NCBI RefSeq assembly: GCF_900188485.1
Contig: NZ_FZPH01000002.1
Span: 186,001-250,000, forward strand
Origin: Asanoa hainanensis
GTDB lineage: Bacteria > Actinomycetota > Actinomycetes > Mycobacteriales > Micromonosporaceae
Direction of reading: 5' to 3'
Length of the DNA: 64,000 bases
The notes beneath the pieces are model-generated. The model had not been told where the DNA came from, did not search any database, and worked only from the letters and a program-made list of their open reading frames with translations. A program made the position numbers and the translations under genes. Below, in pieces: positions 63,058 through 64,000 of the stretch (positions within the stretch are counted from its first letter, which is position 1; each line of letters begins with the position of its first letter).

Positions 63058-64000
63058 ATGGAAGCGTTGGTCCAGCTCGACCACTCGCGGCCGGCCCTCG
63101 GCGAGCAGCTCACGGCCGCGCTGCGGGAGGCGATCGCCGACGGCCGGCTGGCACCTGGCGCCCGTTTGCCGTCCACCCGCCAGCTTGCCGCCGATCTGCG
63201 GGTGTCCCGTGGGGTGGTCGTCACGGCGTACGAGCAGCTGGTCGCGGAAGGCCGCCTGAGCTCGCATAAAGGTTCAGGCACGACTGTCGCTTGCTCTGCA
63301 CCCATATACGCAACACCCGCGCCGAGGGGTGTTGCGTATATGGGTGCAGAGCAGAGCCTGCCGATAGACCTCCGCCCTGGCACGCCCGATTTGGCCGCTT
63401 TCCCGAGGGCCGCCTGGCGCCGCTCCTATGAGCGAGTGCTGGCCACGGCCACTGCGGCCGATCTTGGCTACGCCGACGCCACCGGTGCCCCGCAGGTGAA
63501 GCAGACGCTGGCCGACTACCTGGGAAGGGTGCGCGCCGCTCGGGTGACCGCCGACGACGTCGTCCTCACCACCGGCGCCGCGCAGGCCTTCGCGCTGGTC
63601 GCACACCACCTGCGCCTCGCGGGCGCCGTCCGGTTCGGCGTCGAGGACCCCGGCAGTCCGAGCATCCGGGACCACATGACCGCGCACGGGCTGCGGCTGG
63701 TGCCGATCCCGGTCGACGGGGACGGCCTCGACGTGGCGGCGTTGCGGGCCAGCGATGTGCAGGCCGTCATGGTCACGCCGGCGCACCAGTACCCGACCGG
63801 CGTCGTGCTGGCCCCGCACCGCCGGGCGGAGCTGATCGCCTGGGCCCGGGAGACGGGCGGCCTGATCGTCGAGGACGACTACGACGCCGAGTTCCGTTAC
63901 GACCGCGACCCGGTCGGCTGCCTGCAAGGGCTCGCCCCGGACGTCGTCGCGCACCTCGGTTCGGCCAGCAAGGCGCTCGCGCCGGCACTGCGGCTCGGCT
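63058..64000 (+). CDS. MocR-type GntR/aminotransferase regulator, 3' end missing
   Basis: 314 codons before the right edge. ATG 63058 with GAGGAG. A winged helix (1-75: RLPSTRQLAADLRVSRGVVVTAY) precedes a fold-type I aminotransferase domain: YADATGAPQVKQTLADYL, MVTPAHQYPTGVVL, EDDYDAEFRYD and SASKALAPALRLG, with K305 as the expected PLP lysine. Codons about 79-99 are made entirely of a perfect 27-bp inverted repeat, in the linker between domains. PLP-dependent control of the EamA gene is likely. Confidence 0.9.
   Translation, partial: MEALVQLDHSRPALGEQLTAALREAIADGRLAPGARLPSTRQLAADLRVSRGVVVTAYEQLVAEGRLSSHKGSGTTVACSAPIYATPAPRGVAYMGAEQSLPIDLRPGTPDLAAFPRAAWRRSYERVLATATAADLGYADATGAPQVKQTLADYLGRVRAARVTADDVVLTTGAAQAFALVAHHLRLAGAVRFGVEDPGSPSIRDHMTAHGLRLVPIPVDGDGLDVAALRASDVQAVMVTPAHQYPTGVVLAPHRRAELIAWARETGGLIVEDDYDAEFRYDRDPVGCLQGLAPDVVAHLGSASKALAPALRLG
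63292..63353. repeat. 62-bp palindromic element inside the MocR gene
   Basis: 63292-63318 is the exact reverse complement of 63327-63353 (27-bp arms) around an 8-nt centre. It is less GC-rich than its surroundings (ATATACG and CGTATAT in each arm) and keeps the frame open. Confidence 0.9.

Follow-up and report, generated by a model that had tools for sequence, protein, structure and literature searches.

An inverted repeat in the interdomain linker of an Asanoa MocR gene as a probable copy of a non-autonomous, REPIN-like dispersed hairpin element

The MocR locus and its inverted repeat

The window, by which we mean the whole 64-kb stretch of DNA analysed, ends inside an open reading frame for a regulator of the MocR type (Table 1). 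In this frame Pfam detects a GntR helix-turn-helix (HTH) domain (PF00392) at residues 15-77 and an aminotransferase-like domain (Aminotran_1_2, PF00155) starting at residue 122. Codons 79-99, in the linker between these two domains, are formed by an inverted repeat (63292-63353) that keeps the reading frame and encodes CSAPIYATPAPRGVAYMGAEQ. This agrees with a preliminary description of the locus, which had reported an in-frame insertion of about 20 residues in the interdomain linker.

Also in agreement with that description, the two arms of 27 bp are exact reverse complements of each other and are separated by a loop of 8 nt. No other perfect inverted repeat with arms of at least 14 bp and a loop of at most 20 nt is present in the window. 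When the 74 nt around the repeat were folded as single-stranded DNA, an energy of -37.3 kcal/mol was obtained, versus -11.7 +/- 2.2 kcal/mol for 200 shuffles (z -11.6), so that the claim that the repeat is far beyond chance holds; in this fold the stem extends by three further pairs beyond a one-nt bulge. The repeat had furthermore been described as AT-rich against a high-GC gene. This is correct only in relation to the MocR gene, since the repeat itself has a GC content of 60%, versus 73% for the remainder of the MocR frame inside the window.

Table 1. Features of the MocR locus in window coordinates.
Feature	Position	Strand	Basis or remark
MocR-type regulator, host gene, continues past window end	63058..64000	+	Open frame, Pfam matches, orthologues in 6/6 Asanoa genomes
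Whole hairpin element	63286..63360		Covariance model of the family; G000:C28:249286-249360
Outer end CTTGCTCTGC	63290..63299	+	Family form TTTGCTCTGC, one mismatch in the window copy
Left arm, 27 nt	63292..63318	+	Exact reverse complement of right arm
Loop, 8 nt	63319..63326	+	Between the arms
Right arm, 27 nt	63327..63353	+	Exact reverse complement of left arm
Outer end GCAGAGCAGA	63346..63355	+	Family form GCAGAGCAAA, one mismatch in the window copy

Copies, anatomy and distribution of the element

When this genome (G000) was searched with the DNA of the repeat and its short flanks, 54 strand-wise matches were returned. We built a covariance model, R1, from 23 BLAST-picked copies and scored 150 candidates per genome. 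The model scored 86.8 bits over the whole element in the window and likewise found 54 strand-wise matches, or about 27 sites, in this genome. For the other five Asanoa genomes 36 (G001), 39 (G002), 106 (G003), 58 (G004) and 32 (G005) strand-wise matches were obtained, so that the family is present in all six; the check proposed in the preliminary description, a search of the genome and its relatives for further copies, thus supports its reading as a mobile or replicating repeat. The exact decamer TTTGCTCTGC occurs 49 times in this genome and its reversed control once. Within the window itself a scan for either outer decamer, allowing one mismatch, did not reveal a second copy, and Rfam gave nothing above the gathering score over the element (sub-threshold matches only, to mir-504 and uup).

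The 23 BLAST-picked copies have the consensus ends CTTTGCTCTGC and GCAGAGCAAAG. A larger set of 97 copies was assembled from 96 fetched loci by allowing at most two mismatches per outer decamer and requiring symmetry at no fewer than 22 of 30 positions. Loci L040 and L081 are one place, and L040 was excluded from the copy counts; of the 106 strand-wise matches in G003, the set covers a minority. In 81 of the 97 copies the outer decamers are 66 nt apart, and in five 71 nt. Among the 194 arms, positions 4-7, 9, 10 and 14 are invariant, an invariance that at the outer ends stems partly from the selection of copies by their decamers; the conserved core of the 23 BLAST-picked copies agrees with that of the larger set. 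Coupling between the two arms exceeded that of all 500 within-genome shuffles at positions 11, 12, 15, 16, 17 and 24, and was absent at three of the nine variable positions tested (19, 26 and 28). This outcome did not change when the symmetry filter was removed (99 copies). The coupled arms point to a hairpin or a dyad. In the element two half-sites of ~30 nt form an inverted pair; the outer ends (TTTGCTCTGC and GCAGAGCAAA) are strongly conserved, the symmetric middle varies from species to species, and the loop is short. Variant forms exist in which the arms abut (L278, L282) or in which a half-arm stands alone (L277, L280).

Asanoa belongs to the Micromonosporaceae. When named genomes were scanned with a tight two-arm pattern, the 13 stretches that matched were all from Asanoa iriomotensis, A. 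siamensis and A. ishikariensis, and BLAST gave no match in any of 35 genomes taken from elsewhere in the family and order. The outer ends alone (TTTGCTCTGC...GCAGAGCAAA) matched in 110 of 300 Micromonosporaceae genomes (reversed control, 0), distributed over 16 of 44 genera with up to 34 matches per genome, and the exact ends gave no match in the other 190. Together these results indicate that genomes across the family have the outer ends in common, whereas the inner arms are specific to a lineage. In 15 copies from other genera the symmetry of the inner part ranges from 28 to 100% (ungapped) and is often poor. In a sample of 296 genomes of the class three matched the outer ends, namely two of the three Micromonosporaceae and one of the 293 others. 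Locus L253, of a genome (G388) from a different family within the class, has four matches with identical outer decamers around an unrelated, TGCACATGGGGTGCAGACC-like middle.

Plasmid and phage records contained no match to the element. Six IMG/VR contigs matching the bare outer pattern were rejected as carriers: three are tRNA-Asn genes, matched in the acceptor stem, and in the other three the middle is not palindromic. No such element was found, either by subject or by its end sequences, in the accessible parts of the open-access literature on Asanoa, on actinobacterial MITEs, or on palindromes of Micromonospora, Micromonosporaceae, Actinoplanes and Salinispora.

Placement of copies and filled and empty sites

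Most copies are intergenic, which corrects the emphasis of the preliminary description on coding regions. According to a simple gene caller of our own, based on codon scores, 84 of the 97 copies lie between genes (45 in tandem, 27 in convergent and 12 in divergent gaps), eight inside genes and five at locus edges; for comparison, among the gaps in the window that are 30 nt or longer, 12 are tandem, 12 divergent and 5 convergent. The caller fails to find the true start of the MocR gene in this genome, which keeps the MocR copy of this genome out of the eight; genic copies are undercounted.

In-frame copies were found in three gene families. Besides MocR these are a Gfo/Idh/MocA oxidoreductase, with copies in this genome and in G002, G004 and G005, and a SAM-dependent methyltransferase, with copies in this genome, in G004 and, as multiplied arms, in G003. 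In this genome the MocR copy is read in a different frame from the oxidoreductase and methyltransferase copies. The oxidoreductase copy has the 71-nt form in two species, read as ALLCRHMRITGS here and as ALL/PLLC...HxRITGS in G004, and the 66-nt form, in another reading frame, in two others. This would reflect either the replacement of one copy by another at its site or two insertions at one spot; in both cases the frame of the gene was kept. In the methyltransferase gene of G003 (L198; G003:C1 near 2729051-2729302) the multiplied arms take the form of a half-arm, TTGCTCTGCACCCGC(G/A)..., present several times head to tail and followed by a full palindrome. An apparent single half-arm, read GSASIYAS, lies in a thiamine monophosphate synthase gene (L032:1995-2027).

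Both the methyltransferase and the oxidoreductase gene have empty alleles in G001, which are 69 and 84 bp shorter, respectively, than the filled ones. An intergenic site (L026) is filled in this genome and empty in G001, G003, G004 and G005, the filled allele being a clean 72 bp longer than that of G001. In G002 this place is occupied by a palindrome-rich insertion of a different kind, made of GGAACGGTCCGTTCC units (L201, G002:C32). Conversely, a copy that is filled in G001 and G004 (L120, L132) is missing in this genome. These filled and empty alleles suggest that the element has moved, and some of the empty sites could represent losses. No clear target duplication was detected at L026, L029, L030 or L120, where the junctions have changed, and no constant junction could be read at the sites compared; L012, L019, L027, L013, L010, L033 and others did not give a clean junction when queried for empty sites.

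Flank homology identified 24 locus groups common to several species, two of which, MocR and the L016 group, occur in all six. We compared the similarity of orthologous copies with that of copies at different places. For the close species G000 and G001 (11 pairs) orthologues were the most alike (0.89, versus 0.81 and 0.83 for the other classes of copies). For the seven orthologous pairs of G004 and G005 similarity was 0.75, close to that of non-orthologous pairs (0.74), and was below that of within-genome copies (0.87) in all seven. The 55 other pairs gave averages of 0.79 for orthologues, 0.75 for between-genome copies and 0.82 for within-genome copies; orthologues were less alike than within-genome copies in 34 pairs and more alike than between-genome copies in 42. 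This indicates that some orthologous signal persists and that over longer times copies are replaced or converted. Many copies of G004 have an inner arm of their own, AGCCAAATACGCAACACC, even at places common to other species.

The insert in MocR is shared by the orthologues of all six Asanoa species (eroded in G004 and partly so in G002), and no allele with an uninterrupted linker was found among these six genomes. The preliminary description had looked to close relatives for such an allele; linkers without insert were encountered only in MocR homologues of six other genera, at 64-68% identity. The presence of the insert in all six Asanoa species and its absence in the six other genera indicate that the insertion predates the split of the sampled species. 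On these comparisons the MocR copy is best read as an old, tolerated insertion rather than a recent polymorphism, and it is probably a passenger rather than a regulator of mocR.

Possible explanations

The element, then, is multicopy, its places are filled in some species and empty in others, its copies lie mostly between genes and in a few cases in frame within them, and its arms co-vary. One explanation is that it is a classical REPIN whose mobility depends on a RAYT (Y1 HUH) transposase of the same genome. According to the accessible part of PMC3116915, REPINs are inverted doublets of a short motif with a predicted hairpin, and are dispersed, mostly extragenic, non-autonomous and lineage-specific; the Asanoa element matches this architecture, and Y1_Tnp domains are present in 84 of the 300 Micromonosporaceae genomes. 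However, whereas REPINs are associated with a RAYT, no Y1_Tnp was detected in five of the six Asanoa genomes, and in the sixth, G001, the match covers only positions 47-121 of 121 and has an internal stop. On the assumption that both surveys drew the identical 300 genomes, Y1_Tnp occurs in 28 of the 110 genomes that carry the element and in 56 of the 190 others (Fisher p 0.51), and the five copy-richest genomes lack it. REPINs also number hundreds of copies, the Asanoa element tens, some of them in frame inside genes. In large REP superfamilies one end carries a GTAG or CGTC tag (PMC3733652, in whose accessible part no mention of actinobacteria was found); neither tag is present at the consensus ends of the Asanoa element. 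Given the missing Y1 domain in five Asanoa genomes and the lack of association, we rejected RAYT as the mobiliser and regard a classical REPIN as very unlikely. A recurrent neighbour gene was rejected too: the largest protein cluster has eight members, four of them from one orthologous group, and the others inspected among the 12 largest clusters are orthologous neighbours or small. The arms could also be the terminal inverted repeats of a MITE derived from a DDE-type insertion sequence. Bacterial MITEs, as described in the accessible part of PMC10969869, are likewise short, non-coding, dispersed and non-autonomous with terminal inverted repeats, and the insertions of 69-84 bp would be in keeping with this. 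The stem of the Asanoa element, in contrast, spans nearly its whole length, exact arms were never paired at the spacing of an insertion sequence in this genome or G004, no parent insertion sequence was found in these two genomes, and no target duplication was read at the sites compared, where the junctions have changed; we regard a MITE as improbable. An inverted pair 676 bp apart in G004 (L276, G004:C1:2541575-2542250) consists of a complete palindrome and a lone arm.

Selection for a host function, as an RNA hairpin (terminator or stabiliser) or as a protein-binding dyad whose co-evolution with its partner mimics homogenisation, would account for the long retention at orthologous places (the 24 groups, two of them in all six species), for the constant length and coupled arms, and for the excess of convergent over divergent gaps (27 versus 12, compared with 5 versus 12 in the window). 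It fits poorly with filled and empty alleles beside identical genes, with in-frame genic copies and with the 190 family genomes in which the exact ends gave no match, and we consider it unlikely as the main explanation. Palindromes can be cut as hairpins or cruciforms, repaired from other copies and captured as fragments at breaks. Host repair of this kind, acting alone, would explain the perfect arms, the homogenisation within genomes, the tandem multiplication of arms in the methyltransferase gene of G003 and the failure to find a transposase. The constant length of the unit (81 of 97 copies) and the conservation of the outer ends in 16 of 44 genera suggest recognition by a protein instead, and we therefore give repair alone a minor but real chance. 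As for a native MocR linker that is palindromic by chance, the variability of linkers among MocR proteins is in its favour, but it is refuted by the copies elsewhere in the genome (about 27 similar sites, mostly outside genes), and homologues in other genera lack the insert; its probability is close to nil.

We conclude that the repeat in the window probably belongs to a family of dispersed, non-autonomous hairpins that resemble REPINs; the analyses above yielded no mobiliser. The inverted pair would spread as a folded unit, either a hairpin or a cruciform. A trans-acting factor other than a Y1/RAYT transposase may recognise its ends, and newer copies would overwrite older ones by gene conversion or replacement. 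The MocR copy would have entered the interdomain linker before the sampled Asanoa species split, and may have stayed because its length keeps the frame, it has no stop in frame and the linker tolerates extra residues. More tentatively, and as an idea we hold with less than even confidence, mobile hairpins might occur throughout the Micromonosporaceae, spreading without Y1/RAYT by means of an unrecognised end-recognising enzyme or of hairpin cleavage and end joining by the host, rewriting their copies in concert within each genome and donating in-frame linkers to regulators and enzymes.

In-frame palindromic DNA across many genes is best known from Rickettsia. The Asanoa element produces a comparable in-frame outcome in a large-genome, high-GC soil actinomycete by way of a different element, and selfish-looking DNA has here been turned into protein segments. 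With filled and empty alleles of one gene in sister species, the effect on the protein is directly testable, and the missing RAYT partner, expected of REPIN-like repeats, points to another route of spread. The resemblance to Rickettsia palindromic elements (RPEs) proposed in the preliminary description holds for the tolerated presence of a palindrome in frame in unrelated protein-coding genes, but the element is not an RPE. According to the accessible part of PMC10969869, RPEs are about 150 nt long and have an open frame for a conserved peptide, whereas the Asanoa element has 66 nt, is read in different frames in different genes, without a single peptide frame, is mostly intergenic and belongs to another phylum; by their description the sequences are unrelated.

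Two further observations concern the distribution of repeats in these genomes. A second dispersed repeat of ~75 bp (GGGCCTGGCAGCGGAACGAAGTGGAGCGGTCCCCGGCGGGAGC-like; L013:2117-2220) is present at about 30 places or more in this genome and at many in G001-G003, and adjoins the hairpin in L013, L017, L018, L277 and L282. In G004, 17 of the 24 sites among the matches listed fall at G004:C1:2439753-4627649, that is, between 2.44 and 4.63 Mb of a contig of 7.96 Mb.
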